Below, in pieces: positions 7,686-42,550 of a DNA stretch of 64,000 bases. Position 1 is the first letter of the stretch, and each line of letters begins with the position of its first letter. The translations under genes were made by a program, and so were the position numbers. The notes beneath the pieces were generated by a model that was not told the origin of the DNA, ran no database searches, and was given only the letters and a program-made list of their open reading frames with translations. Location: the NCBI GenBank assembly GCA_014879575.1, contig JACSRU010000116.1, positions 1-64,000 of the forward strand, written 5' to 3'. This DNA is from Chthoniobacterales bacterium (GTDB lineage Bacteria; Verrucomicrobiota; Verrucomicrobiia; Chthoniobacterales; Terrimicrobiaceae).

Positions 7686-8438
7686 ATGACAACAAACATT
7701 TCTTCAAGTTCATCCGGCAAGGTGCTTGCCGCAATCCTGGCAGCAATCCTTTCCGTCGCGTCGGCAAACGCCGCCTTTTTGGTCGTCAATCTTCCCGGCA
7801 CCACCGCGCAGGACAACTGGACCGATCTCACCGCAACGAACTATCCCGGCTTTCCGGTGTATGCCACCAGCGGAAATGCCTGGCCGAGTCCGATCGCGGC
7901 AACGAGCGGGAACGGAGGGGGAAGTTTGAACAAGGTCTCCGGTTTGGGATTTCCCAGTAACGGAGGCGGTGTGTATGTCGGGGGAATGGTGAGCGGAACG
8001 GGAACGTTTGCGGTCACCGACAGTACCGCGATCACCGGTCTCGAAACGGTGGTCTTCCAACTCGAGGTCGAAGGCGTCGGAGCAAACTGGAACAGCGTCC
8101 TCTCCGGCCTGTCCCTGAACTACAACGGTGGCTCTCAAGCCCTGCCGTTCGACTTTTCCCTTGTGGTCTCCGCGATCCCCAACGGCTCATTGTATGGTCA
8201 GCCCAAAACAATTTTCACTTTGGCGTATCAATGGGATCTGACGTCCCTTGGGGCCACGTCCTTTAACATTGCATGGACCGCCGCCGAGCATTCGGTGACC
8301 TCGAACCTCCAAATGAATCAGGGAGATACGATGTTGCAGGTGGTGCCGGAGCCCGCGACCGGGATGTTGCTCGGGCTGGGCGTGGTTGCCTTGAGCCTGT
8401 GTTGGGTGGGCCGGAGCCGTCGGGAGGGCATGGAATGA
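7686..8438 (+). CDS. PEP-CTERM sorting-domain protein
   Basis: 250 residues. An N-terminal signal peptide (hydrophobic VLAAILAAILSVASANA, cleaved near residue 30) is followed by a beta-rich, Gly/Ser/Thr-rich exported domain. The C-terminus is VVPEPATGMLLGLG, then a transmembrane stretch and basic WVGRSRRE, the canonical PEP-CTERM signal processed by exosortase. The protein should be delivered to the cell surface or exopolysaccharide matrix. Its stop overlaps the next gene's ATG (ATGA). It heads a run of six same-strand genes that ends with heme uptake, so a surface role in heme acquisition is possible but unproven. No exosortase gene is in the window. Confidence 0.85.
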   Translation: MTTNISSSSSGKVLAAILAAILSVASANAAFLVVNLPGTTAQDNWTDLTATNYPGFPVYATSGNAWPSPIAATSGNGGGSLNKVSGLGFPSNGGGVYVGGMVSGTGTFAVTDSTAITGLETVVFQLEVEGVGANWNSVLSGLSLNYNGGSQALPFDFSLVVSAIPNGSLYGQPKTIFTLAYQWDLTSLGATSFNIAWTAAEHSVTSNLQMNQGDTMLQVVPEPATGMLLGLGVVALSLCWVGRSRREGME

Positions 8439-9235
8439 GGTCGGAGCGGGGATTCACCCTCCTGGAATTGCTGGCGACGCTCGGCATCCTTCTCGTGCTG
8501 GCGACCCTGATCTATCCGGTGGCGACAAATTGCATCGGGCGCGGACGCGCCGCGACGGAGATGGCGGGAGCCCGGCGCTCTGTCGCCGCCTGGGTCGCGT
8601 ATGCCGCCGAAAATAACAACGCCCTTCTTCCGGGGTATAAGACCGATTCCACCGTGGTGAATGCCAGGGGACAAAAGCTCGGCTTCCCGGCGAATGCGCG
8701 GTATGTTTTCCGGCTTGCCCCGTATTTGAACTACGAACTGAAGGGATCGTTGCTGGTCAATGATCAGAAAAAAATTCAGGACGAATACGAAATGAGCATC
8801 TCGCCTTCCTTCGGGATCAACCTGACCTTCGTCGGAGGAGATTATGGCGGGGGAAGCGACCTCTATCCCTCGGATGCCAACTTTGCCACCTACGGAAAAT
8901 TTGTGGTGACGAATTTGAATGAAATCCACTCGCCCACAAAGTTGATCGTCTTTGCCTCCGCACGGATCACCGACAACCAGGGGCGTGTCCAGGAAGGATA
9001 CAATGCGGTCAGATCGCCCCGGCTTTTCACCGAGCGGTGGGGACAGGATTACGAAGAGAGCGCGCCGTATTATGAATTTGGCGCCGTGCATCCGAGGTTC
9101 GAGGAGCGCGCGGTCTGCGCGATGGCCGACGGCCATGTCGAGATGCTCACCCTCGCCGACTTGCGCGACATGCGGCGGTGGTCCAACCAGGCCGCCGTGG
9201 CGGATGACCCGGACTGGGTGCTGACGCCGCTGTGA
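8435..9235 (+). CDS. Prepilin-type N-terminal cleavage/methylation protein (pseudopilin)
   Basis: 266 residues. Starts MRSERGFTLLELLATLGIL: a short basic leader, G|F prepilin peptidase cleavage site, Glu+5 and a hydrophobic helix. The rest is a periplasmic domain ending with a variant of the processing-associated H-X9-DG motif (His, 12 residues, then ADGHVE). Such proteins are type II secretion/type IV pilus-like pseudopilins. The ATG at 8435 overlaps the upstream PEP-CTERM stop as ATGA. Only 44 bases separate it from hmuS. This PEP-CTERM/pseudopilin order recurs at 33606-32017 and 40261-41868. Confidence 0.85.
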   Translation: MRSERGFTLLELLATLGILLVLATLIYPVATNCIGRGRAATEMAGARRSVAAWVAYAAENNNALLPGYKTDSTVVNARGQKLGFPANARYVFRLAPYLNYELKGSLLVNDQKKIQDEYEMSISPSFGINLTFVGGDYGGGSDLYPSDANFATYGKFVVTNLNEIHSPTKLIVFASARITDNQGRVQEGYNAVRSPRLFTERWGQDYEESAPYYEFGAVHPRFEERAVCAMADGHVEMLTLADLRDMRRWSNQAAVADDPDWVLTPL

Positions 9236-9279
9236 GGGGCGCTTGATCTTTCACCAAACCAACAACCAGGAAACATGAT

Positions 9280-10335
9280 ATGAAAACCGACACGACAGAA
9301 ACCCTCAAGGACCGCTGGGAAGCGCTTCTTGCAACGAAACCCAAACTGCGCATCCGGGACGCCGCCGCCGAACTCGGCGTCAGTGAAGCGGAATTGCTCG
9401 CCACACGCTGCGGCAACGATGTGGTCCGCCTTGCCGCGGACTGGACACAACTGATCAAGGACCTCCCCATGCTGGGCCGCGTGATGTGCCTCACGCGCAA
9501 CGAACACGCCGTGCATGAGCGTTACGGGGAATTTCTCCAGGTGGATTTCTTCCACGGCATGGGACAGGTCGTCGGGCCGGATATTGATCTGCGCCTTTTC
9601 CTCAACAACTGGCAGCATGGTTTCGCCGTGACCGACATCACCGAGGAGGGGGAACGGCAGAGCTTCCAGTTCTTCGACGCGGCCGGCATGGCGGTTCACA
9701 AAATCTACCTGCAGAAGCAAAGCAACTACGCTTCCTACGGACTGATTCTGAACAAATACCGCTCAACGGATCAGGGCACGGAAGTGAGCGTCAAGCCGGC
9801 TCCCAAACCGCGTCCCGAAATGCCGGATGCCGAGATTGACGTGGAGGGATTCGGCCAGGCCTGGCGCGAACTCAAGGACACGCATGCCTTTTATCTGATC
9901 CTTCAAAAATACCGGGTGAGCCGCCTGCAGGCCCTGCGCCTGGCACCGGAGGGATTTTCCCGTCAGGTCAAAATCTCCTCCACAAAGCAACTGCTCGAAT
10001 CGGCCGCCCAATCCGGTCTGCCGATCATGGTCTTTATCGGAAACCGCGGGTGCATCCAGATCCATACCGGGCCGGTGAAGAACATCAAAATGTTCGGAGC
10101 CGAATGGCTCAATGTCCTCGACGAGGATTTCAACATGCACCTGCGGGACACCGCCATCACTGCGGCCTGGATCGTTCGCAAGCCGACTGTGGATGGCATC
10201 GTGACATCGCTGGAAATTTATGATGCCGAAGGGAACAACGTGGTGACGTTTTTTGGAAAACGGAAACCGGGAAGCCCCGAAGATCCGGCATGGATTGCGC
10301 TCACGGACAGCCTGCCCGGGGAGGTCGCTTCATGA
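9280..10335 (+). CDS. hmuS: Hemin-degrading factor / heme carrier HmuS
   Basis: 351 residues, the normal length for HemS/HmuS/ChuS. The two HemS-like repeats are visible, with LGRVMCLTRNEHAVHERYG near 64-82 and a second half around 185-340 containing RNVLDEDFNMHL-like sequence. The family binds heme in the cytoplasm and releases iron or passes heme on. AGGAAA precedes the ATG. Its stop overlaps the start of hmuT as ATGA, so it is the first of four translationally coupled heme-uptake genes. Confidence 0.9.
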   Translation: MKTDTTETLKDRWEALLATKPKLRIRDAAAELGVSEAELLATRCGNDVVRLAADWTQLIKDLPMLGRVMCLTRNEHAVHERYGEFLQVDFFHGMGQVVGPDIDLRLFLNNWQHGFAVTDITEEGERQSFQFFDAAGMAVHKIYLQKQSNYASYGLILNKYRSTDQGTEVSVKPAPKPRPEMPDAEIDVEGFGQAWRELKDTHAFYLILQKYRVSRLQALRLAPEGFSRQVKISSTKQLLESAAQSGLPIMVFIGNRGCIQIHTGPVKNIKMFGAEWLNVLDEDFNMHLRDTAITAAWIVRKPTVDGIVTSLEIYDAEGNNVVTFFGKRKPGSPEDPAWIALTDSLPGEVAS

Positions 10336-11162
10336 AATGGGTGATTGCCGCTCTGGCCGCCCTGACCTCCGCAGCCCTGGCGGAGGCTCCCTCGCGGATT
10401 GTTTCCGTCGGTGGCGCCGCCACGGAAACGGTCTTTGCGCTGGGAGCCGGTGAGACCGTCGTGGGAGTGGATACAAGCAGCGTGTATCCGGAAAAGGCGA
10501 CCGCACTTCCGCAGGTCGGTTATCAACGGATGCTCTCCGCCGAGGGGATTGCCTCCCTGAAGCCGGATCTGGTCATTCTCGCCGCAACTGCCGGCCCACC
10601 GGCGGCCATCGAACAACTGGAAAAACTCGGCATCCCGATGCTCCGCCTGCAGGAGGGTTACAACGTCGGGGCAACCATTGCGCGGGTTCAACAAATCGGA
10701 ACGGCACTCGGTCGGACGTCCCAAGCGGACGAAATCTGCCGGAAGATCCAGGCGGACGCCACGGCGATTCCCTCGCCGCGTCATCCGACCGCACGGGTTC
10801 TGTTTGTCATGTCCGCCGGCGGGGGGGCTCCCCTGGTGGCGGGCTCGGGCACGGCGGCGGACGCCGTCATTACCCTCGCCGGCGCGAAAAATGTCGGCGG
10901 AGATTTTTCGGGTTACAAGCAACTCTCCCCCGAAGCCCTCGTGGCGCTCGATCCGGAGGTCGTGGTCACAACCTCCCGGACGATCAAGGCGGTGACATCC
11001 GGGGAGTTGCTGCCGGGACTTGCGCAGACGGCGGCCGGAAGGAATGCGAGACTCATTGTGATGGACGATCTGTATTTGCTCGGCTTCGGACCCCGGGTAG
11101 GTGAGGCGCTTGCGGAGTTCTCCAAAAAGCTGGCGGATTACCGGTTGAGTGCCGGGCGATGA
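10332..11162 (+). CDS. hmuT: Heme ABC transporter, periplasmic heme-binding protein HmuT
   Basis: 276 residues. Signal peptide MKWVIAALAALTSAALA, then a class III (cluster 8) binding-protein fold with RIVSVGGAATETVFALGAG at the start, LKPDLVILAA, and a long linking helix. HmuT captures heme in the periplasm for the HmuUV permease. The ATG at 10332 overlaps the hmuS stop and its own TGA overlaps the hmuU start. No TonB-dependent outer-membrane receptor gene accompanies the operon in this window. Confidence 0.9.
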   Translation: MKWVIAALAALTSAALAEAPSRIVSVGGAATETVFALGAGETVVGVDTSSVYPEKATALPQVGYQRMLSAEGIASLKPDLVILAATAGPPAAIEQLEKLGIPMLRLQEGYNVGATIARVQQIGTALGRTSQADEICRKIQADATAIPSPRHPTARVLFVMSAGGGAPLVAGSGTAADAVITLAGAKNVGGDFSGYKQLSPEALVALDPEVVVTTSRTIKAVTSGELLPGLAQTAAGRNARLIVMDDLYLLGFGPRVGEALAEFSKKLADYRLSAGR

Positions 11163-12154
11163 GTCCCTCGCGGCCTGCGATCCTCTTTTTTTTCCTCATC
11201 CTGGCATCGGTTGCCGTGACGTTTGTGTCCCTGCGAACCGGTGCCGTTGAGGTGACGTGGGCGGAGATGCTCGGCGGAGAGGGATCCACGGGAGCGCGGG
11301 TTTTTCGGGTGATGCGCGTGCCCCGTGCGCTGATGGGATTTCTTTGTGGGGGGGCGTTGGGGATATGCGGTGCCGCGTTGCAGGGACTCTTCCGGAATCC
11401 TCTTGCCGATCCGGCACTCGTTGGGGTGTCCGGCGGCGCCTCGCTCGGTGCGGTGGGTGGCATTGTCTTTGCGGGCCCCTTGTTGGGCGCCTCCTCTTAT
11501 GCGCTTCCGGTTTGCGCCTTTCTGGGAGCCCTTGCGGCCACTTTTCTGGTCCAGGCCATTGCCTCCCAGAATGGCCGTGTGCTTGTTTCCACGCTGTTGC
11601 TTGCGGGTATTGCCGTCAACGCATTGACCGGAGCCGGGATTGGATGGATGGTCTATGGAGCCAATGACAGCCAGTTGCGAGACTTCACCTTCTGGAGCCT
11701 GGGAAGCCTGGCCGGGACCGGGTGGCATTCGGTGTTCTCCAGCCTGCCCTTTGTCGTCCTCTCAACGGTCCTCCTCATCTGGCGCGGACGGACACTGAAT
11801 GCGCTGTCGCTGGGGGAATCCGATGCCTGGCACATGGGCGCCCCTGTGGAGTCCGCAAAACGCTCGATCCTCGTGGCCTCTGCATTGGCGGTCGGCGCGA
11901 GCACGGCCTTTACCGGAACCATCGGGTTTATCGGACTCGTTGCGCCGCATGTGGTCCGGATTTTCTGTGGCGCCGATCATCGGGTTGTCCTCCCGGCGTC
12001 GTTTCTTGTGGGGGGCTGTCTGTTGACCGGCGCCGATGTGCTGGCGCGGATTGCCAGGGCGCCGGCAGAAGTTCCGGTGGGCATCGTGGTCGCTACGATC
12101 GGAGCCCCCTTTTTTGTCGCGCTCCTCATGCGGGGGAAAGGGCAGGGGATGTGA
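11159..12154 (+). CDS. hmuU: Heme ABC transporter permease HmuU (FecCD family)
   Basis: 331 residues with eight to ten predicted hydrophobic segments. The FecCD signatures RVMRVPRALMGFLCGGALG, LADPALVGVSGGASLGA and GTIGFIGLVAPHVVR are all present. It forms the inner-membrane channel moving heme into the cytoplasm with HmuV. Start and stop both sit in 4-base overlaps, with hmuT (ATGA) and hmuV (GTGA). Confidence 0.92.
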   Translation: MSPSRPAILFFFLILASVAVTFVSLRTGAVEVTWAEMLGGEGSTGARVFRVMRVPRALMGFLCGGALGICGAALQGLFRNPLADPALVGVSGGASLGAVGGIVFAGPLLGASSYALPVCAFLGALAATFLVQAIASQNGRVLVSTLLLAGIAVNALTGAGIGWMVYGANDSQLRDFTFWSLGSLAGTGWHSVFSSLPFVVLSTVLLIWRGRTLNALSLGESDAWHMGAPVESAKRSILVASALAVGASTAFTGTIGFIGLVAPHVVRIFCGADHRVVLPASFLVGGCLLTGADVLARIARAPAEVPVGIVVATIGAPFFVALLMRGKGQGM

Positions 12155-12951
12155 ATACCCTCGCCGCGGAAAATTTGTCGCTTTCGAGAGACGGGAGAAC
12201 GGTGGTCGGCGGGCTGAATTTTTCCGTGCCACCGGGGAGTCTGCTCGTGGTGGCGGGTCCCAATGGCGCGGGGAAATCCACTTTGCTGCGCGTTCTCTCC
12301 GGTGAACTGCCGCCCTCGCAGGGGCGGGTCTTGTTTGGCGGGCGGGACATCGCTTCGATTCCCCATCGCGAGCTGGCCCGCCGCCGGGTTTTTCTCGCCC
12401 AGCAAAGCGAATGCCGGCTTCCTTTTCTTGCCTGCGAAATGGCTCTCCTTGGCGCGGAAGCCGCCGGACATCGGGGACGCGCGGCGCGGGAGCGCGCAGC
12501 GGCTGCCCTGGAGATGGCGGGCGTCTCCCATTTGGGCTCCCGCATGATGTCGAAGCTGTCCGGGGGGGAGCAACAGCGCGTGCATTGGGCGCGCGTTCTC
12601 GCCCAACTCGATGAGCAAACCGAAGACCGCCTCGTCTTTCTTGACGAACCGGTGTCCAGCCTGGATTTGGCGCACCAACATGAATTGCTCGCCAGGGCAA
12701 GACGTCTCGCGAAAGCCGGCGCCACCGTGGTGGCCGTTCTGCACGATTTGAATCTCGCCGCGCGGTATGCCGACGAGTTGCTCCTCCTCAATGACGGGGG
12801 GATGCAGTCTCATGGCGCACCGGCTCAGGTGCTCGAACCGGAGACGATTTCCCGGGTTTTTCAGGTCTCGGCTCAGGTGATTGCGCATCCGACGGATGGC
12901 GGGCCGCTGGTTGTCGTCAAGGATCGGATCCCCAACGAACCTGCTGAGTGA
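12151..12951 (+). CDS. hmuV: Heme ABC transporter ATP-binding protein HmuV
   Basis: 266 residues from a GTG start at 12151 that overlaps the hmuU stop as GTGA. Walker A is GPNGAGKST near 36-44, the signature motif LSGGEQQRV near 140, Walker B RLVFLDEP with the D-loop SSLD, and the switch His in VLHDLN. It powers HmuU. The operon ends 15 bases before the stop of a convergent AraC-type gene. Confidence 0.92.
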   Translation: MNTLAAENLSLSRDGRTVVGGLNFSVPPGSLLVVAGPNGAGKSTLLRVLSGELPPSQGRVLFGGRDIASIPHRELARRRVFLAQQSECRLPFLACEMALLGAEAAGHRGRAARERAAAALEMAGVSHLGSRMMSKLSGGEQQRVHWARVLAQLDEQTEDRLVFLDEPVSSLDLAHQHELLARARRLAKAGATVVAVLHDLNLAARYADELLLLNDGGMQSHGAPAQVLEPETISRVFQVSAQVIAHPTDGGPLVVVKDRIPNEPAE

Positions 12952-12966: not shown

Positions 12967-13872
12967 TCAGGATTTCTTTTGCAGGGGGAAGACGCAGGGA
13001 CAGTGGCCGAATTGCTTCGTAAAGGCTTTGCTGAAGTGACTCAGGCTGGAGTAGCCGACCATCATGCCCGCCTCGGTGACATTATATTTTCCGCTTCGCA
13101 ACAACTCGGCCGCACGTTCGAGACGGCTGGTCCGGAGGTATCGCGTGATCGTGGTGCCGGTCTCCTCCGAAAAAAGTCTGCTCAGGTGAAACGGACTGCA
13201 ACCGACCTCCCGGGCCAGATCCTTCAACGAGGGGGGAGCTTCCAAGTCGCGTGCGAGAATTTCCTTCACCTTCTCCGCCCGCTCCCGCGAGACCTGCTTC
13301 TGGCGTTCGCAAAATAATTGTTCCGGCGCGAAGACATGTGCCAGGACTTCCAAAATTTTTCCCGGATACCAAATCCCGGGCAAGGCCGTCGGCGGATTCC
13401 GCATCTCCTCGGCCGCCCGCCGGACCCAGGGACTCATCGGCCGCGCCAGCGGCAAGGCCGTCGCCCTCTCGGCTCCCTCCAAAAAGGCCCGGACCTCCCT
13501 CGGACACTGGGCGGCAAATTCCCCGATCGCTCTGGCCAGCCACTCGCGCGATGTCTCGATCGTCAAAAAACAATGCCTCTCGTTCGCTTCCCGCCAACCC
13601 TTCAATTTTCCCTGCGTGTAATAGAAAACCGTCTGCGGCCCGTTTGCAGAGACGATCCCGCGACCCTTTCCGAATCTTCCCCGGCCCTCAAAATTCAGAC
13701 AAATCTCCAAACTCTCCGGGTGAAAACTTTTCCCCCATTCCAAATGCCGCAATGCCAAAAAATCGTGCCACTCCACGCTGATCCCCTGCGTGTCAAAGCC
13801 ACCAAAAAGCAACTTCCACTCCCCCTGGACCTCTTCCCAAACCTCCTTTTCAGAAAATGCCTCACCCTCCAT
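12967..13872 (-). CDS. AraC family transcriptional regulator, PchR-like
   Basis: 301 residues from the ATG at 13872; an in-frame TTG at 13902 would add ten residues, and neither has a convincing ribosome site. The N-terminal sensor half resembles PchR/siderophore-type AraC proteins (for example RHCFLTIETSREWLA). The C-terminal 100 residues are two helix-turn-helix units, LKDLAREVGCSPFHLSRLF and VTEAGMMVGYSSLSHFSKAF. Tail-to-tail position 15 bases from hmuV suggests it controls the heme operon in response to iron or a siderophore-type ligand. That link is inferred from location and family only. Confidence 0.82.
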   Translation of the reverse strand: MEGEAFSEKEVWEEVQGEWKLLFGGFDTQGISVEWHDFLALRHLEWGKSFHPESLEICLNFEGRGRFGKGRGIVSANGPQTVFYYTQGKLKGWREANERHCFLTIETSREWLARAIGEFAAQCPREVRAFLEGAERATALPLARPMSPWVRRAAEEMRNPPTALPGIWYPGKILEVLAHVFAPEQLFCERQKQVSRERAEKVKEILARDLEAPPSLKDLAREVGCSPFHLSRLFSEETGTTITRYLRTSRLERAAELLRSGKYNVTEAGMMVGYSSLSHFSKAFTKQFGHCPCVFPLQKKS

Positions 13873-28873: not shown

Positions 28874-29467
28874 CTAAGGAGCGTGGTCAACCTCCACGTC
28901 ATCGAATTGACACAGCCCAGAAAACTCATAGGCGATCCGTAGTGACGCGGCACCTTCAGGTGCCGAAGCCGGCACCTCAAATGTGTAGGACTCCCATTGA
29001 TCGCTTAACGGGAATTCCTGGAGCTTCTGATTGGAGAGCCATCCTTCATTCGTGTTGTAGTAAAGATACACAGTCACCTTTGGCTGGCTGCCATTGTCTT
29101 CGCCCCTGGCCTTGAAAGACGCCCGATACGCCTGTCCTGCCGGCAGGGTGTCCGCAGGATAGATGTGACTCTTGCCGTGCGAGTTGATTTGCAAAAACCG
29201 CTCGTCATCTCCCTTCTTTCCGAAAGAAATTGTGGCGGCATCCATGGCGCCGTTAATCACCCAACCGTCCGCCCAGTCGTCCGTATCGAAATCGAGCTGA
29301 AACCCCTTGTCCGCGTAGTCATATTGGTGCGTGATGCGGATGCTATTCAAGGGAGCTTCGATTTCAAAGGAGGGGTTCAGGACAAGGTTGTCCGCCTTGA
29401 GTGTTTTGATGGGGAGAAGAATGGCGCTCACCCCCAACAGGCTTCCGCAGATCAGGTTTGTATTCAT
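28874..29467 (-). CDS. Secreted carbohydrate-binding module protein (CBM4/9-like)
   Basis: 197 residues. The start is the ATG at 29467, where a signal peptide begins (NTNLICGSLLGVSAILLPIKTLKA). The mature protein is a single jelly-roll CBM of the CenC type: NLVLNPSFEIEAP, a mid-domain GDDERFLQIN, AGQAYRASFKARGED and a final FDDVEVDHAP. No catalytic domain is present, so it probably binds the glycan or presents it to the neighbouring enzymes. It sits 4 bases after the GH123-like gene and 21 before the GH42-like gene. Confidence 0.75.
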   Translation of the reverse strand: MNTNLICGSLLGVSAILLPIKTLKADNLVLNPSFEIEAPLNSIRITHQYDYADKGFQLDFDTDDWADGWVINGAMDAATISFGKKGDDERFLQINSHGKSHIYPADTLPAGQAYRASFKARGEDNGSQPKVTVYLYYNTNEGWLSNQKLQEFPLSDQWESYTFEVPASAPEGAASLRIAYEFSGLCQFDDVEVDHAP

Positions 29468-29471
29468 GATT

Positions 29472-31997
29472 TTATTGGTCGTGTTTGATGTTTTCCAACT
29501 GTGAAAGAATCTTCTGTCGAAATTCATCCGGGGTGGTGACATCGGCGGGCTTGGCCGCAAGCCAGGCCAGATTTGACCGGTTTTTTCCGGCAACCATTTT
29601 TGGAGCTGTTTGAAGAAGTTCCTGAGCCTGCTGTTTCCATGCCCCCTCCGGCGCAGAGGCAATCTCCTTTCGCAGTGTGTTTAGATATTGATAATCTTCG
29701 ATCCCCTCCCGGAGCGCCTCGAGATGAATGCTGCCGGTCACGTCGGTGGGTCGAATGAACACAGGGGAAAAATTGGGCGTGAGAGTATCGTATTCATTCC
29801 AGTTGCTCGGCGAGGCACCAACTCCGGAATCCCCTCCGATATTCCCAAAAGCCCAGTAGTGCAGACCCTCGGCGCCCTGATCAAAGACCCACCAGGCTTT
29901 CGAGCGGTAATAATTGGTGGGATCAAAGAGCCGGTTGGGGCCTTCGCACTGGTAGAAGGAGAGACGTTGATGGGCCGGCCGGTTCTTGAAAAATTCTTCT
30001 GTGACCGCGCCTCCGGATTCATATTGCCGGATGAAGGGGCAGATGATGTCGGGAAGCTTCATGGCTTGAGCATTCCGGGTTTGCCCGGGGTGCAGCCAGG
30101 TCGGATTTTCCAGGATCTGAAATTCAGGAACCGCCGCCTTCACCGCCTTCGCCCATGCCTCAATGATGGCATCCTGCTGATCCGTATGGGGCTCGTCCAC
30201 CAATTGGAGCACCAGCCGCTTCCGTTCGATGCCCCTGGCATCCAACTGTTTTGCGATCTCCCGTATCCAGGCACCCACCCTCTCGGAAAAGACGGGGTCG
30301 GTCATCTTCACGCCGTCAAATTCCTCTTTGGCATTGAGAAAAATATAATAGTTTTCGATGCCCGGCCAAAGGGCCACCCAGCGATCAAAATTTGCGAAGC
30401 CCTGCCCCGGCGTTTTGCTGTCGGGGCGCGGGAAAATGCTGCCGTAAGCCCATGTGCCATTGACGAAATGTGCGCGCATCATCTCGATGGAGGCCTGCAT
30501 GTTCTCAGGCGTCAGCCCATAACTTTCCTTTTGCCCATTGGCGTAATCCCACAACGAAACCGCCAGTCCGGGACGCCCGAGCGCGAAAGGCGAGACGCGC
30601 ACCGAAAACGGCACTTCTTGTATCTGGCCCGGCTGCCACTCGATTTCCACCCGCCCTTTGTGCTCTCCGGGCGGGAGATTCGATGACTGGACGCGGAACC
30701 ACAACTTCTGCGTCATTCCGGCACGGAGAGGAAACCGGTAAGCATTGTCGTGTTTCTCCAGCCAGGGGAGTGCGTCGGCCACGGGTTGGTGTTGGAGGGT
30801 ATCCGTCCACGGAACAGCGGAAATGCGCAGCCAGTCGCCGGATTCCGGCAAATCTTTAACCCGGAGGATAACGTCCCTGTCCTTCGCCGAGGCGTTTGTG
30901 ATATTCAGGCTGTCTGCGCGGAATTCCTCGCGCATCATATTCACCTCAAGGCGGGGAGGAGCGACATCAGCAGGCGGTTCTTCCAGATAAGGGGGCAGCA
31001 GGTAACGGTGTTGATTCCAGACCAACACTTCCGGCAGGCCCTTGGCCTGCAGAATCCTTCCAAAAATCGAAAAAATCTCTTCGTGCGCCGGGGCGAGGGG
31101 AAGCACTGCTTCAAAGCGGGCAAGATCCCCAACGGCAAATGCGTCCACCTGCTTCGCCGCAGCCGCAAGGCGGCTCTGCAATTTCTGTCGTTCCTCGTCG
31201 GAAACCGGAGCGGCCTTCAGGGCGGCCTGGACTTTTTCGAGGTCATGGGTCATGCGCTTCCGCGCGCTGTAGGCAATGCGCTGTTGGCGCACGTAATTGT
31301 TAATGGCCGCCTTGCCTTCTCCGGGAATGGTGAGAGTTTTTCCCTGGCTTTCCTGGGGATCCTTGTCACCGCCGAAGATTTTAATCTCATCACAGAAGAC
31401 ATAGTTTTTATCGTCGGGATTGTCGCATCCGGGCGCGGGAACGATTGCCACATACCGCCCGCTCACATCCAAACCGCGCACTTGATAACGCCAAAGTGCG
31501 GGGCGATTCTCCGGCGGCTTGCCCCTTTTTGCGGCGGAGAGGTCCACAAGGTTTTCTTTGACCGCCTTCCAATGGATGCCGTCATCACTGACAAAAAGAA
31601 AAAGTTGCCGCAGGAAGCCGACTCCTCCGTCGCCCGCAGCCGTGCTGAAGCTCAGGCCGTCTATCGAGCGTGTCTCTCCCAGATCAATCGTAATCGTCGG
31701 AGTCGCAAACATCCATCCCACACTGGTCTTGAGCGCCCAGAGACCGGGCAGCTCCGGACCTGTCCCATAAACACCATCCGTCAGATCGCGCGGATCATTG
31801 GCATCCTTGCAATGGGGGTAGTTTGGCGCAGGGTCCAGAGTGTAGGGGCGGCCCAGGGCGATATTTTCCGGTTGTTTTGGCTGATCACTCTCTCCGGCCG
31901 AGGCCGTCGGGAGCACCCCTCCCAGCATGGCACACAGTGCCGCCGAGAATGTCCGTCGCGCCCTTGATTCTGTCATGAATGATATCCCAATTTCCAT
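29472..31997 (-). CDS. Secreted GH123-like glycosidase (DUF4091) with F5/8 discoidin domain
   Basis: 841 residues (834 if the second ATG at 31976 is used, which gives the cleaner signal peptide TESRARRTFSAALCAMLGGV). After the signal come a discoidin-like domain (residues about 40-210), a helical linker near 225-300, a sandwich domain and a GH123-like barrel. The barrel has LQLVDEPHTDQ with the adjacent Asp-Glu pair expected of GH123. The DUF4091 end signature is HLEALREGIEDYQYLNTL. GH123 enzymes cleave N-acetylgalactosaminides; the substrate here is not certain. Confidence 0.8.
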   Translation of the reverse strand: MEIGISFMTESRARRTFSAALCAMLGGVLPTASAGESDQPKQPENIALGRPYTLDPAPNYPHCKDANDPRDLTDGVYGTGPELPGLWALKTSVGWMFATPTITIDLGETRSIDGLSFSTAAGDGGVGFLRQLFLFVSDDGIHWKAVKENLVDLSAAKRGKPPENRPALWRYQVRGLDVSGRYVAIVPAPGCDNPDDKNYVFCDEIKIFGGDKDPQESQGKTLTIPGEGKAAINNYVRQQRIAYSARKRMTHDLEKVQAALKAAPVSDEERQKLQSRLAAAAKQVDAFAVGDLARFEAVLPLAPAHEEIFSIFGRILQAKGLPEVLVWNQHRYLLPPYLEEPPADVAPPRLEVNMMREEFRADSLNITNASAKDRDVILRVKDLPESGDWLRISAVPWTDTLQHQPVADALPWLEKHDNAYRFPLRAGMTQKLWFRVQSSNLPPGEHKGRVEIEWQPGQIQEVPFSVRVSPFALGRPGLAVSLWDYANGQKESYGLTPENMQASIEMMRAHFVNGTWAYGSIFPRPDSKTPGQGFANFDRWVALWPGIENYYIFLNAKEEFDGVKMTDPVFSERVGAWIREIAKQLDARGIERKRLVLQLVDEPHTDQQDAIIEAWAKAVKAAVPEFQILENPTWLHPGQTRNAQAMKLPDIICPFIRQYESGGAVTEEFFKNRPAHQRLSFYQCEGPNRLFDPTNYYRSKAWWVFDQGAEGLHYWAFGNIGGDSGVGASPSNWNEYDTLTPNFSPVFIRPTDVTGSIHLEALREGIEDYQYLNTLRKEIASAPEGAWKQQAQELLQTAPKMVAGKNRSNLAWLAAKPADVTTPDEFRQKILSQLENIKHDQ

Positions 31998-32016: not shown

Positions 32017-32622
32017 TTATGGAATCACACCCTGTGTTGAGGGTTTCCATTCCACTCGTCCGTCCACATACAACACATTCCTCCCTCCCTGGTGTACGGG
32101 TTTCGGAGCGATGTTTGCCACGTTGCTATTGGCGTAGTTCCAGGCGTCCATATCTTCCAGGAGCCAGCGTTTTTCAGAAGAAAAATTGTGGACCTGCAGA
32201 AGTGTGTAAGCGGGTTTTCCTGACTGGGGATGCCCAAAATAGAAGGCCGTGGCGTAGTTCCCTTGCACGTAGCCGGTGAAACCCACTTTGCGCAAGCCGG
32301 AGTTGGCTGGACAATCCCAGGTCTTTCCGGGGTTCTTTGTTTCACCCAAATACGGAGCCAGGCTGGAGATGATGGTGTCTCCCGTGGTGATACCGTAGCT
32401 CAGAGCCTCTGGCAGCCGCCCGTTGTTCTCTCCCGCATATTGGGTGACAGCCATCCCAATGCTCCGCAGATTCTCAACACACTGCAAGGCCCTCGCCCTT
32501 TTCACGCCCCGATTCAAGGCCGGTATCAGAATTGCCGTGAGGATGACACCCAGTGCTATGGTCATGAGCAATTCCATAAGCGTAAACGCTCTTGCGTCCG
32601 TTTCCTTGAAGATCCCATTCAT
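32017..32622 (-). CDS. Pseudopilin with H-X9-DG motif
   Basis: 201 residues from the ATG at 32622 (MNGIFKETDARAFTLMELL). It has the prepilin cleavage site A|F, Glu+5 and a hydrophobic helix MTIALGVILTAILIPAL. The C-terminal motif is VHQGGRNVLYVDGRVEW, an exact H-X9-DG signature of processing-associated pseudopilins. It follows the PEP-CTERM LamG gene by 60 bases and precedes the GH123-like gene by 19, so it is the second gene of the operon. Confidence 0.88.
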   Translation of the reverse strand: MNGIFKETDARAFTLMELLMTIALGVILTAILIPALNRGVKRARALQCVENLRSIGMAVTQYAGENNGRLPEALSYGITTGDTIISSLAPYLGETKNPGKTWDCPANSGLRKVGFTGYVQGNYATAFYFGHPQSGKPAYTLLQVHNFSSEKRWLLEDMDAWNYANSNVANIAPKPVHQGGRNVLYVDGRVEWKPSTQGVIP

Positions 32623-32682: not shown

Positions 32683-33606
32683 TCAGCCGCTTCTCCGCTT
32701 GGAGCGGCCTTTCATCAACCAGGCGACACCTGCCAGCGCGAGCAATACCACGGACTGCGGCTCAGGGACGGCGTCCGCCGCGCGGATGGATTCCAGAGCA
32801 CTTGAACTCAACACTCCGCCAGTGCCACTCGTCGCGCCATAGACACGGACGTTATCCATATACCCATCCCAAGGACGACTGTTTCCGTTGAGATTTCCAA
32901 TGATAAAATTCGCGGTATTGGCATTTAGAGAGCCTTTGTCAAAGTCCTGCGTGGTTCCAAGCTGAGTCACGTTTACTGTCGTGTTTCCCATATAAAAACG
33001 AAGGTTACTGGTTGCCGCAGTCCCATCGTAAGTAACGGCAAAGAACACCCAGGAACTGAGTGCTCCCAAGGTTGAGGTGCCAGTCGAAAACGCAGTCGTT
33101 GCGGCAGAACTGGAAGTCCCCAAAGTCAGACTCAGGCTCCCATTGGCGGCTGTCCGGTGGTATTGCAGGCTGATCTGGGCATTGGTGTTCTGATTTTTTT
33201 CAACTAACCGCGCTCCCGAAATGCTCCCGGTATCGCCGGAATCCGGGCTCTTTAACCACCCCAGGATCGTGAACGAAGACAAGCCGTCCACCGCATTAAT
33301 ATCGCCACCATTGGCTCTCCCCCCGATTCCTGCAGTTCCCATCCCCGTGGAAGCCGTGTTGTCAAAGGCAAGATCCCCGGACAGCCCGGACACCCCGGAG
33401 CCCGCACCGCCATGAAGATCAGTGGCCACGTCACTGCTACTCAGCAAAGTTACCGCAGTCGTGTCGCTGCCCGTGCTGGCCGAGGTGGTGCCGCTGTCAT
33501 TGAATTTGTATTCTAAAATCTGCGAGAACACGGCGGGCAGCCCGAGGCTGAAAAACGTGACGCAGATCAGAAAAACACGGTTCGGGGACATCATAAGAGA
33601 TTTCAT
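32683..33606 (-). CDS. PEP-CTERM protein with LamG domain
   Basis: 307 residues from the ATG at 33606. Signal peptide of about 28 residues (FLICVTFFSLGLPAVFS). The body is a LamG/concanavalin-like sandwich (LEYKFND, SSFTILGWLKSPDSG, WVFFAVTYDGTAATSNLRFYMG, WDGYMDNVRVYG). The C-terminal anchor is VPEPQSVVLLALAGVAWLM followed by KGRSKRRSG. It should be sorted to the cell surface and could bind glycans. It is first in the seven-gene operon and divergent from the GntR/LacI-type regulator at 33869. Confidence 0.86.
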   Translation of the reverse strand: MKSLMMSPNRVFLICVTFFSLGLPAVFSQILEYKFNDSGTTSASTGSDTTAVTLLSSSDVATDLHGGAGSGVSGLSGDLAFDNTASTGMGTAGIGGRANGGDINAVDGLSSFTILGWLKSPDSGDTGSISGARLVEKNQNTNAQISLQYHRTAANGSLSLTLGTSSSAATTAFSTGTSTLGALSSWVFFAVTYDGTAATSNLRFYMGNTTVNVTQLGTTQDFDKGSLNANTANFIIGNLNGNSRPWDGYMDNVRVYGATSGTGGVLSSSALESIRAADAVPEPQSVVLLALAGVAWLMKGRSKRRSG

Positions 33607-33868
33607 AGGGATGTTGGAGGTGAATGGGGCAATGAAAACTGAAAAAATGAAAAAGTCAAAGAAATATTTCAATAAAATCGTTCTCTCCTTCGGATTCCTT
33701 TTCTCCGGGGGATTCCCGGAAAATGGCCCTTGCAATTTTCTGGTAGAATAGTAGAATACAGCATGATTTTAAATTCCTGTGCAGCCATGGACAGCCGATT
33801 TTTTCCACGAGAACATTTTTCTGGGATTCCAAAATTTTCGTTTCGTAGTCCCTGAGCATTCCGGCCCC
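33607..33868. promoter_or_regulatory. Divergent promoter region with tandem 8-base repeat and hairpin
   Basis: 262 bases between the divergent PEP-CTERM operon and regulator. GTAGAATA is repeated head-to-tail at 33743-33750 and 33751-33758. A hairpin, TCCGGG at 33704-33709 with CCCGGA at 33715-33720, lies upstream. The tandem repeat is a plausible binding site for the adjacent regulator. The region is AT-rich relative to the genes. Confidence 0.4.
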
Positions 33869-35053
33869 GTGATTTCCGACCTGCATTCTGATTCGGCACT
33901 TCCCCGATTAAACTACCAGTCCGAGCAGTCGCTGATTGATCAGATTGCCCGGCACTACCGTAGTCGCATCCTTGATCAGACGTTCAAGCCGGGCACCCGA
34001 CTTCCGACCTGTCTGGAGATTGGGCGACTTATCAAGATTGCGCCCCAGACGGTGGATCGGGCCTTTGATATTCTGGCGCGGGAAAAATTGGTGTATCGGA
34101 GGCGGGCGGTTGGAACGATGGTCGGGCTGCCCACGCCATCCCATCCGGTGACGAAAATCCCGAAGCGTAGCCCGAACCGCAAGCCGGGTCGAAGCACTGT
34201 CCGGATGATTGTCAGTCGGGCGAGCCTTTTGGATCCGGAGGCCCATCTGCTTGTTGTGGACTATCTGAACGGGTTCATCGAGGGATTCAATGTGCGGCGC
34301 TGCAAATTTGAGATTGCCTACCTTCCGCCCAAACAAACCACGCTGGAATTCCTTCATTCTCTGCAATCTGCCGGGCACCTGCAGGCGTTAATCAACATGC
34401 ACCTTGAGCAGGAAGCCACGGATTTTCTGATTCAGCAAAAAATTCCCATGGTGTGCATCAATCAGGACCTGACGCGCCATCACGTGCCGAGTGTTCTCGC
34501 GGACAGTGTGCGGGGCTATACGGAGGCCTGGAGCCATGCGCACGCGCTGGAACACACCCGTGTAGCCTTTTTGGGATTTCAAAATCCCCTGTCCGATCGC
34601 CAATACGAATGTGCCGCCGGGCGGGAAATCGCGCGTATATCCCTGCCCATGGAGATGCTGCTGATCCCGGAGCACTCTCCGACACCACAATCGCTGGCCG
34701 CCTTTCTGACCGGATGCCTGGGGACTTTCCAACCTCTTCGGTGGCCGACTCTGATTTTTGTCCAGACCGATCACCTGGCGATCCAACTCCTCGCCGCGCT
34801 CACCACTCTCGGCATCTCCGTGCCCCGGCAGATTTCCGTGATCGGATTTGACGATTCCCCCGCCGCAAAAAATTGCCATCCCGGGCTCACCACAATTGCC
34901 AAGCCCCGGGCGCAGATGGCCTTTGCGGCGTCCCAGTTGCTCGTCGACCTCCTGGAGCGCAGACCCGGGACCAACAATCATTTGCAAGTTTTTCCCCTTG
35001 GCCTGGTGGAGCGGGAAACCTGCGCTCCCGCCATGAAGGCCGCAAAGACATAA
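33869..35053 (+). CDS. GntR-type HTH regulator with LacI-like sensor domain
   Basis: About 394 residues; the start is uncertain. GTG at 33869 is used here, a GTG at 33779 is another option, and no ATG precedes the HTH. The winged helix contains QIARHYRSRILDQTFKPGTRLP and IAPQTVDRAFDILAREKLV. The sensor is periplasmic-binding-protein-like (LLVVDYLNGFIEGF, VAFLGFQNPLSDRQYE, ISVIGFDDSPAAKN, TTIAKPRAQMAFAASQLL), as in LacI/AraR-type hybrids that respond to sugars. It is divergent from the glycosidase operon and probably controls it. Confidence 0.8.
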   Translation: MISDLHSDSALPRLNYQSEQSLIDQIARHYRSRILDQTFKPGTRLPTCLEIGRLIKIAPQTVDRAFDILAREKLVYRRRAVGTMVGLPTPSHPVTKIPKRSPNRKPGRSTVRMIVSRASLLDPEAHLLVVDYLNGFIEGFNVRRCKFEIAYLPPKQTTLEFLHSLQSAGHLQALINMHLEQEATDFLIQQKIPMVCINQDLTRHHVPSVLADSVRGYTEAWSHAHALEHTRVAFLGFQNPLSDRQYECAAGREIARISLPMEMLLIPEHSPTPQSLAAFLTGCLGTFQPLRWPTLIFVQTDHLAIQLLAALTTLGISVPRQISVIGFDDSPAAKNCHPGLTTIAKPRAQMAFAASQLLVDLLERRPGTNNHLQVFPLGLVERETCAPAMKAAKT

Positions 35054-39040: not shown

Positions 39041-39073
39041 CGCCGGAAAGCCTCTCATTGTTTAAAAATTTAA

Positions 39074-39104: not shown

Positions 39105-39118
39105 CCAAATGAAAAACA

Positions 39119-40264
39119 ATGGGCATTTTAGCGGAAATGAAACAACCGGCCTTCCAGCGCGTGGCGGAAAAAATTCGGGAGCAATTTTTGCATTCCGGCT
39201 CTGCGGCGGTGGGGGATCGTCTTCCGGGTGTTCAGGAACTGGCGCGGCGGTATCAGGTGAGCGTGCCGACGGTGAGCAAGGCACTGGGCGTGCTCCAGGC
39301 GGAAGGGGTGTTGGAAACGACGCGTGGCGCGGGAATTTTCATCACGGCGCTTCCGATGGCCCGTGCCACGGGGATTTTGCCGCGTGGACGCAGGCTGGGA
39401 TTCATTGCGAATGCCTTTGCCCCGTCGGTGGCGCAGAAGGTGCTTGCCGGGGTCACCCGCACCGCCGCGTTGCACGGCTGCCGGGTGGAACTGGCGATGA
39501 CGGACTGGGACCCGACGGAGGAGCGCTGGCATCTGCTCAACATGGCCAAGCAGGGATTGGACGGGGTCATTGTGTATCCTTCGGTTTCTCCGGCGGGCGT
39601 GCCGCACTATCTGGCCGACACGCTGCCCGATTTTCCCGTGGTGGTGATTGATCTGGCCCGACCGGAAATGAAGCGCCCTTCGCTCGTGTTCGACAACTGG
39701 AAGGCCGGACTCGACATGACCCGCCACCTGCTCGATGCGGGCCATGAGAATATCGGCTTCATTTCGCTCGGGGATTCCCGCTCCGTGAGCGACCGGCTGA
39801 AGGGCTACCGTCGCGCCCTGGCCAGCACGGATCAACCCTACCGGGAGGAATTGGTGGGGGATGGCATGGAGGCTCTGCATGACAAAAATTTCGGCCCGCT
39901 CCTGGATCGCCTGCTGGCCTTGCCGTCGCGACCGACGGCAATCATCGCGCCCTACGACCAGTTTGCCCGCTACTGCCTGGACGAGTTGGACGCCCGCCCC
40001 GACGGCGCACCGCCGGTCGAAGTGGTGGGATTCGACAACATCCAGACCGACGAATGGCGACATCGGTTTCCGACCACCGGTCCCGACTTCTACAATCTCG
40101 GCGAACGTGCGGTGGACATGCTGCTGCAGATCATCGACAGCCACGCCTCGACACCCACGGAAACGGTGCTGCCCGCGCCGCTGATTCTGCCGCCGAACGC
40201 GCTGGTCCCCGCCGAAGCCTCCCGCCTCTCTCTCCTCAACACACCCAACCCCATACCACAATGA
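39119..40264 (+). CDS. GntR family regulator with LacI-like sugar-sensing domain
   Basis: 381 residues. The winged HTH (residues about 10-75) has GDRLPGVQELARRYQVSVPT and VSKALGVLQAEGVLETTRGA. The sensor has RRLGFIANAFAPSVAQKV, LDGVIVYPSVSPAG, SLVFDNWKAGLDMTRHLL and VEVVGFDNIQTDEW. Such proteins are sugar-responsive repressors or activators. The stop overlaps the start of the next PEP-CTERM gene as ATGA, so the regulator heads its own operon. It also faces the GH106-like gene and probably controls both directions. Confidence 0.86.
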   Translation: MGILAEMKQPAFQRVAEKIREQFLHSGSAAVGDRLPGVQELARRYQVSVPTVSKALGVLQAEGVLETTRGAGIFITALPMARATGILPRGRRLGFIANAFAPSVAQKVLAGVTRTAALHGCRVELAMTDWDPTEERWHLLNMAKQGLDGVIVYPSVSPAGVPHYLADTLPDFPVVVIDLARPEMKRPSLVFDNWKAGLDMTRHLLDAGHENIGFISLGDSRSVSDRLKGYRRALASTDQPYREELVGDGMEALHDKNFGPLLDRLLALPSRPTAIIAPYDQFARYCLDELDARPDGAPPVEVVGFDNIQTDEWRHRFPTTGPDFYNLGERAVDMLLQIIDSHASTPTETVLPAPLILPPNALVPAEASRLSLLNTPNPIPQ

Positions 40265-40944
40265 AAACCTCGAAACATCCCCTCCTCACAATGCATCATC
40301 CCGCATCCCTTCCGTCAAAACGCGGCGGCCTCACAGCCTTGGCCGTCGGCCTCGCCCTGTTTGTCGCCCTCGCATCCTCCCACGCCCAGGTGCTGGTGAA
40401 TGCCGGAACGGTCACGCCTGTTGGGGGGGCGGGCCAGGGCTCCTACACCGCGGGAGTGATCCTTCAACTCACGACAACGAGCACAACTTCAGTTCCGCTC
40501 AGTTTTGTGCTCGATCTGGGGTCCGTGCAATCCATCGACGAGATCACGATTCAGAATCGGACCAGCGCGGGCACGAATCTGGCTGTGCGCACCTTGAGCA
40601 TCTATGTTGCGCCGGACGAAAGCATTGGAGGATTTGATCCCTTGAATATGAGTTTCTACACGACCCAGGTGGCTCCCAATGCCCTCTTGACGCCGAGTGT
40701 CAACACCGCCGGAGCCATGCGGCCCGTTGATATTACGGACTCCACCAAGCGTTATTTCCTCGTGAATCTGACCGGCAGCTTCAACGCACCGAGCGGATTT
40801 TCGAATGCCAATGGAAACGTGAACAACGTGCAATTCGGCAACGTCTATGTCACCGCCGTGCCCGAACCTTCCACCATGCTCCTTGGCGGTCTTGGTGTGG
40901 CCGGTCTCTTCCTGAGCCGTCGGATGCGCCGCGCGTTCCGCTAG
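40261..40944 (+). CDS. PEP-CTERM sorting-domain protein
   Basis: 227 residues. Signal peptide with hydrophobic LTALAVGLALFVALASSHA. A beta-rich exported domain follows (SFVLDLGSVQSIDEITIQNR resembles a discoidin-like sandwich). The anchor is VPEPSTMLLGGLGVAGLFL followed by SRRMRRAFR. It is translated with the GntR regulator (ATGA overlap) and precedes a pseudopilin gene, the same order as at 7686 and 33606. Confidence 0.86.
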   Translation: MKTSKHPLLTMHHPASLPSKRGGLTALAVGLALFVALASSHAQVLVNAGTVTPVGGAGQGSYTAGVILQLTTTSTTSVPLSFVLDLGSVQSIDEITIQNRTSAGTNLAVRTLSIYVAPDESIGGFDPLNMSFYTTQVAPNALLTPSVNTAGAMRPVDITDSTKRYFLVNLTGSFNAPSGFSNANGNVNNVQFGNVYVTAVPEPSTMLLGGLGVAGLFLSRRMRRAFR

Positions 40945-40979
40945 CCCCAATGTGGTTCATCGAACGGCAGATTCACTAA

Positions 40980-41043: not shown

Positions 41044-41118
41044 AAATCTCCTAAAGAAACGGCATTGCCGCCAGCCTCCTATTTCCGCCCCTTGGAACAC
41101 AAAAATATCAATCATTTT

Positions 41119-41868
41119 TTGGGGGAAAACCCGCCGGACCCACATGGGCCCGGCGGGTTTCAGTGTCGTGGTTTCCTGTCCGCGCGCGAGGCCTTCACCG
41201 TGATCGAGTTGCTGGCCTGCGTGGGAATCATTCTCGTGCTCGCCGCTCTTCTCTTCCCCGTGGCGAACCGGATGAATGCCTCCGCGAAACAGAATGCCTG
41301 CCTTAGCAACCTGAGAACGATCGGCTCCGCCCAGGCTCAGTATTCCGCAGAAAACAACGGCGCCATCACGCCGAACCGCTCGAACGAGGGTGCCATCGCC
41401 TACTTTTGGAATCAGGAACTGGCGGCGTATATCACCGGGGGCGAGCGTCGCGGTGCCGGTGGCGGAACCCCACCGGTGAAATGCAAAGCCTTCCATTGCC
41501 CCGCTGCGAAGGCCGCCGCCCCGGCCGATCCCCTCGGTTACAGCTCCGCCTATGTGGAAAAATCTTCCTATGGGCAAAACCTCCTCATCGGCGGAGGCAA
41601 CGAGGCCGCCGTCAAGATCAACGGCTATCCGAAAAATCAACGGCGGCCAATGATCGAGAAACCATCCAAAATGGTCCTCGTCGCCGAAACGCCGGCGGTC
41701 AATATCGCCTCCTACTCCTACGAAGGCGCGACCGCCGGCCCAACCCGCCACAACGGAACCAGCAACCTGCTCTTTGTGGACGGTCACGTGGAATCCGCCG
41801 TCTATCCCGTCACGCCGGAACGGGGCAACAAAACTTATAATTGGAGCATTGGAAATGAAACAAACTGA
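41119..41868 (+). CDS. Pseudopilin with H-X9-DG motif, start codon uncertain
   Basis: About 249 residues if the TTG at 41119 is used. Upstream in-frame TTGs at 41065 and 41092 are the only other common start codons; there is no ATG or GTG before the prepilin site. The sequence REAFTVIELLACVGIILVLA gives the cleavage site A|F, Glu+5 and helix. The C-terminus has RHNGTSNLLFVDGHVESA, an exact H-X9-DG motif. A strong hairpin (41127-41160) lies within the first codons of this frame, which is odd. It follows a PEP-CTERM gene and overlaps the next gene by 14 bases. Confidence 0.78.
   Translation: MGENPPDPHGPGGFQCRGFLSAREAFTVIELLACVGIILVLAALLFPVANRMNASAKQNACLSNLRTIGSAQAQYSAENNGAITPNRSNEGAIAYFWNQELAAYITGGERRGAGGGTPPVKCKAFHCPAAKAAAPADPLGYSSAYVEKSSYGQNLLIGGGNEAAVKINGYPKNQRRPMIEKPSKMVLVAETPAVNIASYSYEGATAGPTRHNGTSNLLFVDGHVESAVYPVTPERGNKTYNWSIGNETN
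41127..41160. terminator. Strong GC-rich hairpin at pseudopilin start
   Basis: AAACCCGCCGG at 41127-41137 pairs perfectly with CCGGCGGGTTT at 41150-41160, continued by CCC/GGG after one mismatch around a 4-base loop. It has the shape of an intrinsic terminator. It falls after the PEP-CTERM gene but inside or just before the pseudopilin coding sequence, so attenuation or translational control is as likely as simple termination. Confidence 0.55.
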
Positions 41869-42550
41869 AAAATTGGGATGCGCTCTGCGCGGAAGGAAAT
41901 GGTGTTGGGAACTGAGCCTGCTGGCATGTTGTGTCGGCCTTGGCGTGTCGGCGTTTGCCGATCTGACCGAAGGCGAGTTTCCGAATCAGACGGGCTCCCT
42001 GCACAAGCAAAACGGCTGGGAAGTGCAGAAGCCGGAAGCGGGCGGCTGGGTGGAGGCTTGGGATGCCGTCCAGGTCGAGCAGGACGACCAGGGGGACAAC
42101 GTCATCGTCTGGCAGGCGGGAGCCGGTCCGAAGGAACAGGTGCGCATCGTGCGCCCGTTTCCCCCCACCAAATCGGACAAAGTGCGCATCTCCTTCGCTT
42201 TCAAACCCGGCGCGGAAAGCCTCGGAGGGCGCCTGTATTTCATGCAGACAGCGCAGCTCCCGGTCATGGCCCTCCAGTTTAAAGCGGGAAACGTTCTTGT
42301 TGTGGAAGGCGGCCAGACCCAGGCGACCGACACCGGTGTCGGGTTTTCCCCCGAGGACTGGAACCGCATCGAAATCCGCGTAGATTTTACGAAACACACC
42401 GCGGAACTCATCATCAACGGCACTCCGGTCGGCCACTATGAAATTCCGGCGTCCGCGACCGCCTTGGGCCTTGTGAATTTGTTCGCAGGCGGCCAAACGC
42501 ACGCCTCGACACTCAAAGGTCTCACGATCGAAGGGGTTTCCTCGTTCTAA
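41855..42550 (+). CDS. Secreted LamG/concanavalin-like protein
   Basis: 231 residues from the ATG at 41855, preceded by GGAGC. Signal peptide with WELSLLACCVGLGVSAFA. The mature protein is a single beta-sandwich (WEVQKPEAGGWVEAWDAVQV, KVRISFAFKPGAESLGGRLYF, WNRIEIRVDFTKHTAELIING) like LamG or DUF1080-type folds. It has no recognisable catalytic motif and may bind carbohydrate. Its start lies inside the end of the pseudopilin gene and it precedes the DUF4838 gene by 28 bases. Confidence 0.7.
   Translation: MKQTEKLGCALRGRKWCWELSLLACCVGLGVSAFADLTEGEFPNQTGSLHKQNGWEVQKPEAGGWVEAWDAVQVEQDDQGDNVIVWQAGAGPKEQVRIVRPFPPTKSDKVRISFAFKPGAESLGGRLYFMQTAQLPVMALQFKAGNVLVVEGGQTQATDTGVGFSPEDWNRIEIRVDFTKHTAELIINGTPVGHYEIPASATALGLVNLFAGGQTHASTLKGLTIEGVSSF

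Follow-up and report, generated by a model that had tools for sequence, protein, structure and literature searches.

Conserved couplets of PEP-CTERM surface proteins and prepilin-type pseudopilins beside different nutrient operons in Verrucomicrobiota and related phyla

The window analysed here is a stretch of 64,000 nucleotides from contig JACSRU010000116.1 of a Chthoniobacterales bacterium (GCA_014879575.1), a metagenome-assembled genome (MAG) of 3.60 Mb in 178 contigs. It contains three couplets in which a gene for a PEP-CTERM surface protein is followed at once by a gene for a prepilin-type protein (Table 1). All three had been predicted from the letters of the window and lie where they were placed, with a 4-bp ATGA overlap in pair 1, a 60-bp gap in pair 2 and a 174-bp gap in pair 3. 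Their PEP-CTERM proteins exceed the TIGR02595 cut-off of 16 bits and have a C-terminal PEP motif, a transmembrane stretch and a basic tail. The pilins of pairs 1 and 2 are above the TIGR02532 cut-off of 16.3 bits and that of pair 3 is slightly below it. The H-X9-DG domain (TIGR04294) is above its cut-off in the pilins of pairs 2 and 3 but reaches 15.5 bits against a cut-off of 19 in the heme pilin of pair 1, for which the predicted wording "H-X9-DG-like" is fair. A couplet codes for a beta-sandwich protein that is exported by Sec and bears a PEP-CTERM signal, the motif of exosortase substrates, and for a prepilin-type pseudopilin. Pair 1 heads a set of heme genes, pair 2 is followed by genes for GH123-like, carbohydrate-binding module (CBM)-like and LamG/GH42-like proteins, and pair 3 by LamG-like and DUF4838 genes.

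The MAG holds 47 PEP-CTERM proteins above cut-off and 63 N-methyl proteins. Nine same-strand pairs with the PEP-CTERM gene before the pilin gene lie within 400 bp of each other. The window holds three of them, and contigs C139, C112, C175, C21, C102 and C109 have one apiece; all nine PEP-CTERM partners exceed curated cut-offs. Gene-level chance gives 0.61 pairs (P about 2e-8), an estimate for which the gene number (about 3300) and the same-strand factor (0.65) were assumed and adjacency was taken from motif positions. The opposite order does not occur (9:0, sign test P=0.004). An additional immediate pair is found on C5, its PEP-CTERM protein being absent from the listed hidden Markov model matches, and at further loci (C20, C32, C173, C83 and C135) a secreted protein is encoded between the PEP-CTERM protein and the pilin. 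The relative G006, an assembly of 3 contigs with 114 pilins, has a PEP-CTERM gene directly upstream of 4 of 60 sampled pilins when about 1 is expected (P about 0.02); in the same sample one pair is fused, four more PEP-CTERM genes are found at most 2 kb upstream and one downstream. The adjacency beyond chance that the original prediction expected is thus present in both genomes. There is a real enrichment, stronger in some lineages than in others; in G006 it is directional too but smaller.

Table 1. Couplets and neighbouring features in the window (positions on the forward strand)
Feature	Coordinates	Strand	Evidence
PEP-CTERM surface protein, heme operon (pair 1)	7686..8438	+	TIGR02595 20.7 bits; PF07589 E=1.2e-05; AlphaFold2 (AF2) pLDDT 92
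Beta-sandwich domain within 7686..8438	~7770-8351		
Sorting motif within 7686..8438	8343-8399		
Prepilin-type protein, heme class (pair 1)	8435..9235	+	PF07963 E=1e-06; TIGR02532 29.8 bits; ATGA overlap with PEP-CTERM stop
ChuX/HutX-HemS heme-utilisation protein	9280..10335	+	PF05171 E=7.5e-82; PF06228 E=7.5e-63
Heme ABC substrate-binding protein (HmuT-like)	10332..11162	+	PF01497 E=1e-32
FecCD permease (HmuU-like)	11159..12154	+	PF01032 E=4.6e-85
ABC ATPase (HmuV-like)	12202..12951	+	PF00005 E=8.2e-26; real start maybe slightly upstream
AraC-family regulator, convergent with heme operon	12967..13872	-	PF12833
Ferritin-like protein, divergent neighbour of pair 1	7027..7545	-	PF00210 E=3.7e-31
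PEP-CTERM protein with LamG domain (pair 2)	32683..33606	-	PF13385 E=1.6e-12; TIGR02595 19.6 bits
H-X9-DG pseudopilin (pair 2)	32017..32622	-	TIGR02532 20.3 bits; TIGR04294 20.8 bits
GH123-like glycosidase with F5/8C-like domain	29472..31928	-	PF13320 E=3.4e-05
CBM4_9-like secreted protein	28874..29467	-	PF02018 E=4e-4, below Pfam cut-off
LamG protein, weak GH42-like region	25766..28852	-	PF13385 E=2.5e-11
GntR/Peripla_BP_3 sugar-type regulator, divergent from pair 2	33779..35053	+	PF00392, PF13377
GntR/Peripla_BP regulator before pair 3	39119..40264	+	PF00392 E=9.2e-14; PF13377 E=6.3e-15
PEP-CTERM protein (pair 3), weak F5/8C (galactose-binding-like) similarity	40261..40944	+	TIGR02595 21.2 bits; PF07589 E=2.4e-07; PF22633 E=0.0019
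H-X9-DG pseudopilin (pair 3)	41119..41868	+	TIGR04294 24.1 bits; TIGR02532 16.0 bits, below cut-off
Secreted LamG-like protein, weak 3-keto-disaccharide hydrolase similarity	41945..42550	+	PF06439 E=7.5e-04, below cut-off
DUF4838/GH2-N protein	42579..45035	+	PF16126 E=1.1e-25

The heme class of pair 1 provides the strongest case. Among 146 relatives from the order, 17 have a match to its pseudopilin, and each of these genomes has just one (E<=1e-15; 33-44% identical). In 15 of the 17, one or more PEP-CTERM proteins and the pseudopilin are followed by HutX or heme oxygenase and then by HmuT, HmuU and HmuV, with heme oxygenase (PF01126 E=3.5e-20) taking the place of HutX in two groups. One of these loci (L119) ends at a contig edge after HutX, and another (L117) has no PEP-CTERM gene before the contig end. 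The pair is present without heme genes at L105 and L106. A scan of GTDB genomes with an alignment of 15 heme-class pilins gives 80 loci, some on contigs already counted, in Verrucomicrobiota, Kiritimatiellota and Planctomycetota (mostly Phycisphaerae). Heme genes are found beside 22 of these 80 loci; in a set of 116 other pilin loci with almost the same total length there are none (Fisher P=4e-10).

The placing of the heme-class couplet varies between lineages. It stands before the transporter genes in Chthoniobacterales and after them in Kiritimatiellota, and in Phycisphaerae its two genes are transcribed divergently; heme oxygenase is antisense in subdivision 6 and lies beside the surface gene in three Phycisphaerae. 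The predicted position at the head of the operon therefore holds for Chthoniobacterales but not for the other two groups. Because several gene orders occur across lineages, the linkage is hard to ascribe to shared ancestry of a single order alone. Another contig of the MAG (L070 4198-3437 and 4502-6697, G000:C98) also has a PEP-CTERM gene and a pilin gene that diverge from each other across about 300 bp, resembling the Phycisphaerae arrangement. The same locus (L070 19389-19526) shares a near-identical ATPase gene fragment with L065 1-138, both at contig ends, and this is probably a repeat that broke the assembly.

The heme-class pilin is partnered by two sequence-unrelated domain families, PEP7 (27 sequences aligned) and famC (46 sequences, 44% mean identity). 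One or the other is encoded within 1.5 kb in 64 of the 80 loci, seven loci have both, and two proteins carry the two domains together; certain partners have no PEP-CTERM signal, for example L107 2509-3456. AF2 models of both surface domains are confident, with a predicted local distance difference test (pLDDT) score of 93 and 92. The top match in a fold search is an alginate-binding CBM (famC; E=2.5e-4, TM-score 0.57 by target), and the remaining matches are weak and include carbohydrate-binding and Eph-type beta-sandwiches. In the PEP7 domain Tyr, Gln and Trp residues are conserved and a His partly so, which would be at most a hint of heme binding. The famC family has no sequence match in Pfam, NCBIfam or PDB, and with L161 3643-4398 and 45 other loci it is a strongly conserved surface-protein family of the Planctomycetes-Verrucomicrobia-Chlamydiae (PVC) bacteria.

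In the MAG, the couplets are attached to a heme ATP-binding cassette (ABC) transporter, a molybdate/tungstate-type ABC transporter, ZnuA/ZnuC and several glycosidase operons, and for three classes the relatives have orthologs in synteny. Couplets accompany transport or degradation genes; one class is found with heme genes, a second with ABC genes of the molybdate/tungstate type. The C139 pair has an ATGA overlap and precedes two molybdate-type binding proteins and a permease, and the order of PEP-CTERM protein, pilin and binding protein is kept in all six loci of relatives. The C112 pair precedes ZnuA (PF01297 E=1.5e-64) and an ABC ATPase, and the PEP-CTERM partner is kept at nine of ten ortholog loci, the tenth being at a contig edge. 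Interpretation of the C112 class as a zinc system was rejected because ZnuA/ZnuC do not follow the pair in relatives. SCO1/CusF and plastocyanin genes lie near three of its loci (L263, L266 and L267) and Met motifs are present, from which "copper" might be guessed as a weak label; a small conserved protein beside the pair has no Pfam match. In the pilin tree the three classes form separate supported clades (100/100 for the heme class), which contradicts a single clade of all coupled pilins.

Of the couplets checked, seven overlap by ATGA, and in some the two parts are fused. In G005 the C112-type PEP-CTERM protein and the pilin form a single open reading frame (ORF) of 497 amino acids. The molybdate-class pilin carries a fused second PEP-CTERM domain in G006, G009 and G012, where the sorting signal's basic tail has become the prepilin's basic leader. 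The fusions are ORF-level readings of assemblies, with agreement between three genomes for the molybdate-class fusion.

The genome encodes three exosortases (PF09721 matches above cut-off) and a type II/IV assembly ATPase, platform protein and secretin (PF00437, PF00482 and PF00263). A TonB-dependent receptor was not found by PF00593 or PF07715 at E<=0.01 in the genome, with positive controls. This also means that no receptor is available for a SusCD pair in the genome, SusD itself not having been searched for. The Pfam scan gave no Isd-like NEAT domain, and the fold search only weak beta-sandwiches of carbohydrate-binding type. Two genomes, G008 and G030, have a TonB receptor, with ExbB/ExbD/TonB neighbours, at the head of a phosphonate-type ABC operon that has no couplet, whereas their heme ABC operon has a couplet and no receptor within it; this complementarity rests on those two genomes. 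Among 27 genomes of the order a Plug match is found in 4 of 18 with the heme class and in 4 of 9 without it; absence of the receptor as a correlate of the heme class was not significant and was rejected.

Several neighbouring genes and other pilin loci should be mentioned. Ferritin and FeS-assembly protein genes flank pair 1 and are divergent from it, and orthologs of the convergent AraC-family regulator are also found beside five other heme-class loci (L103, L104, L108, L112 and L116). The stop of the GntR-type regulator before pair 3 overlaps the start of that pair by ATGA. Elsewhere in the window there is a complete Verru_Chthon cassette (45304-51461, minus strand; proteins D, A, C and B above NCBIfam cut-offs), which is another prepilin-type expansion, and a PEP-CTERM protein with an autotransporter-type repeat that has no pilin partner (56973-57710, minus strand). 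On another contig of the MAG (L078 8838-10574, minus strand, G000:C57), one open frame of 578 amino acids joins an H-X9-DG-type pilin to a LacI-type regulator (Pfam domains LacI, Peripla_BP_3, N_methyl and DUF1559), and a PEP-CTERM gene is next downstream. At L205 2399-5182 (plus strand, G000:C49), a 170-amino-acid H-X9-DG-type pilin is encoded between an unknown protein of 184 amino acids and an ABC-2 exporter, the genes overlapping by a few bases.

The preferred explanation, to which a probability of about 0.5 can be given, is that each couplet is a surface-capture module dedicated to a substrate, which cooperates with an outer-membrane pseudopilus. The surface protein would capture the substrate or its carrier outside the cell, and the class-specific pseudopilin would assemble into a short pseudopilus linking capture to an outer-membrane secretin or porin. 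The substrate might then be passed to the products of neighbouring genes, either a periplasmic binding protein or enzymes, and the couplet would occupy the place of the TonB receptor (or SusCD) in operons of other Gram-negative bacteria. Participation of the couplet in substrate acquisition at the cell surface has slightly better than an even chance. Transfer across the outer membrane by the pseudopilus is doubtful. It is rather unlikely that this amounts to a TonB-independent route, in which PVC bacteria lacking TonB-dependent receptors import heme, oxyanions or other metals and glycans by a substrate-specific exosortase-anchored capture protein and a pseudopilus. The coupling of surface protein and pseudopilin to different nutrient systems, as originally predicted, is supported in the genome and its relatives by the enrichment with fixed order, the three orthologous classes, the fusions and the heme genes found beside one class only. 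As a general module it needs qualification, in that the couplet recurs with different nutrient systems but most PEP-CTERM and pilin genes are unpaired.

Several observations weigh against the capture module. In the MAG 38 of the 47 PEP-CTERM proteins and the majority of pilins lie outside couplets. No recognised heme gene is found within about 6 kb of 58 of the 80 heme-class loci, including nearly all those in Phycisphaerae, and a Fur-box-like site upstream of heme-class loci was not found beyond shuffled sequence except in one marginal case. A hemophore fold for the surface proteins was rejected because the models match no heme-binding structure. The C112 class keeps the adjacency of PEP-CTERM protein and pilin but not ZnuA/ZnuC in relatives. 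Loss of the TonB receptor is common in the order with or without the heme class, so its absence alone proves little.

The same couplets can be read in terms of export, with a dedicated minor pseudopilin that aids type II secretion of the neighbouring surface protein before an exosortase processes it, uptake then occurring via porins. The constancy of the surface neighbour and the fusions favour this explanation: the pairing in 64 of 80 heme-class loci is steadier than that with any nutrient system, and ATGA overlaps and fused genes are what a pair of cargo and adaptor might show. Components of a type II secretion system are encoded, and an OprB porin adjoins one couplet. However, the heme-class pilin is orthologous while its partner switches between unrelated domains, suggesting that the pilin is tied to the substrate and not to one cargo. 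In addition, most PEP-CTERM proteins manage without an adjacent pilin, and the divergent transcription in Phycisphaerae leaves no translational coupling. Export of this kind is a serious alternative, though less probable than the capture module. The capture module is favoured by the linkage of an orthologous pilin with changing partners to a single substrate together with the missing receptor, and both explanations predict co-expression. The data establish a conserved pairing and its operon company; capture and export are both proposed functions.

It is improbable that the two genes are only co-regulated neighbours, expanding together with glycosidase genes in loci for secreted degradation and having no joint mechanism. 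Both families are expanded (47 and 63 copies) and both occur in carbohydrate-active enzyme loci with GntR/LacI-type regulators, and the Verru_Chthon cassettes are other pilin expansions. This does not account for the fixed order and the fusions, nor for the pairs that are conserved in ABC operons of heme and molybdate type, where there is no glycosidase. Short motifs such as these two signals are prone to over-calling, but chance or an annotation artefact can practically be dismissed. It is already contradicted by the curated cut-offs reached by all nine PEP-CTERM partners and by orthologous syntenic pairs recurring in relatives and in three phyla.

The couplets bear on how large or scarce nutrients are imported across the outer membrane in Verrucomicrobiota and Planctomycetota. 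The heme couplet is conserved, has a single clear substrate and one copy per genome, and is therefore a small case that can be tested genetically. If true, the capture module would give a purpose to the dozens of pseudopilin and PEP-CTERM genes that these bacteria carry.

In most Gram-negative bacteria TonB receptors carry out the outer-membrane step of uptake, and a TonB-dependent receptor with HmuTUV is a known system for heme. The operons described here have the same ABC transporter, HutX/HemS or heme oxygenase, and a similar operon position. HmuR is an example of such a receptor (PMC5827684). In contrast, a couplet is found here; the operon has no TonB receptor, and none could be detected elsewhere in the genome. 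The Isd system of Gram-positive bacteria is a sortase-anchored heme system. It resembles the heme couplet in having surface proteins with sorting signals encoded with a heme ABC transporter, but here the signal is of exosortase type, the cell is diderm, a pseudopilin is present and no NEAT similarity was found. SusCD is the pair of polysaccharide loci in Bacteroidota; it is likewise a repeated two-gene unit with a surface binding protein in sugar operons, but there is no homology and a pseudopilin stands here instead of a TonB-type channel. The Verru_Chthon cassettes are a prepilin-type expansion in the same bacteria, with one in the window, but have four genes and no PEP-CTERM partner.

ZepA of Anabaena is an exoprotein with a PEP-CTERM signal that mediates zinc uptake and is encoded near metal-uptake genes including ZnuA (PMC10957091). 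The likeness is one of description, and ZepA differs in that no pseudopilin partner is described and an outer-membrane receptor is presumed. In Planctomycetes, dextran binds to pili-like fibres and the uptake route is uncharacterised (PMC5394234). In a Verrucomicrobium a pulG-like pseudopilin belongs to an alginate operon that is upregulated on alginate, and Verruconatronum has a large paralogous pseudopilin expansion with 67 homologs (PMC13274419). According to the founding paper on PEP-CTERM proteins, most of their operons consist of a single gene, and searching that paper by term gave no mention of pilin pairing; no description of PEP-CTERM/pseudopilin pairing was found in the literature search. 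The pilins described here share with the type II/IV H-X9-DG (DUF1559-like) pseudopilins the N-terminal prepilin signal, the H-X9-DG domain in most of them and the large paralogous expansion, but differ in forming orthologous classes that are tied to particular operons and have PEP-CTERM proteins as adjacent or fused partners. The parts belong to known families and the dedicated couplet appears to be new to the literature searched.

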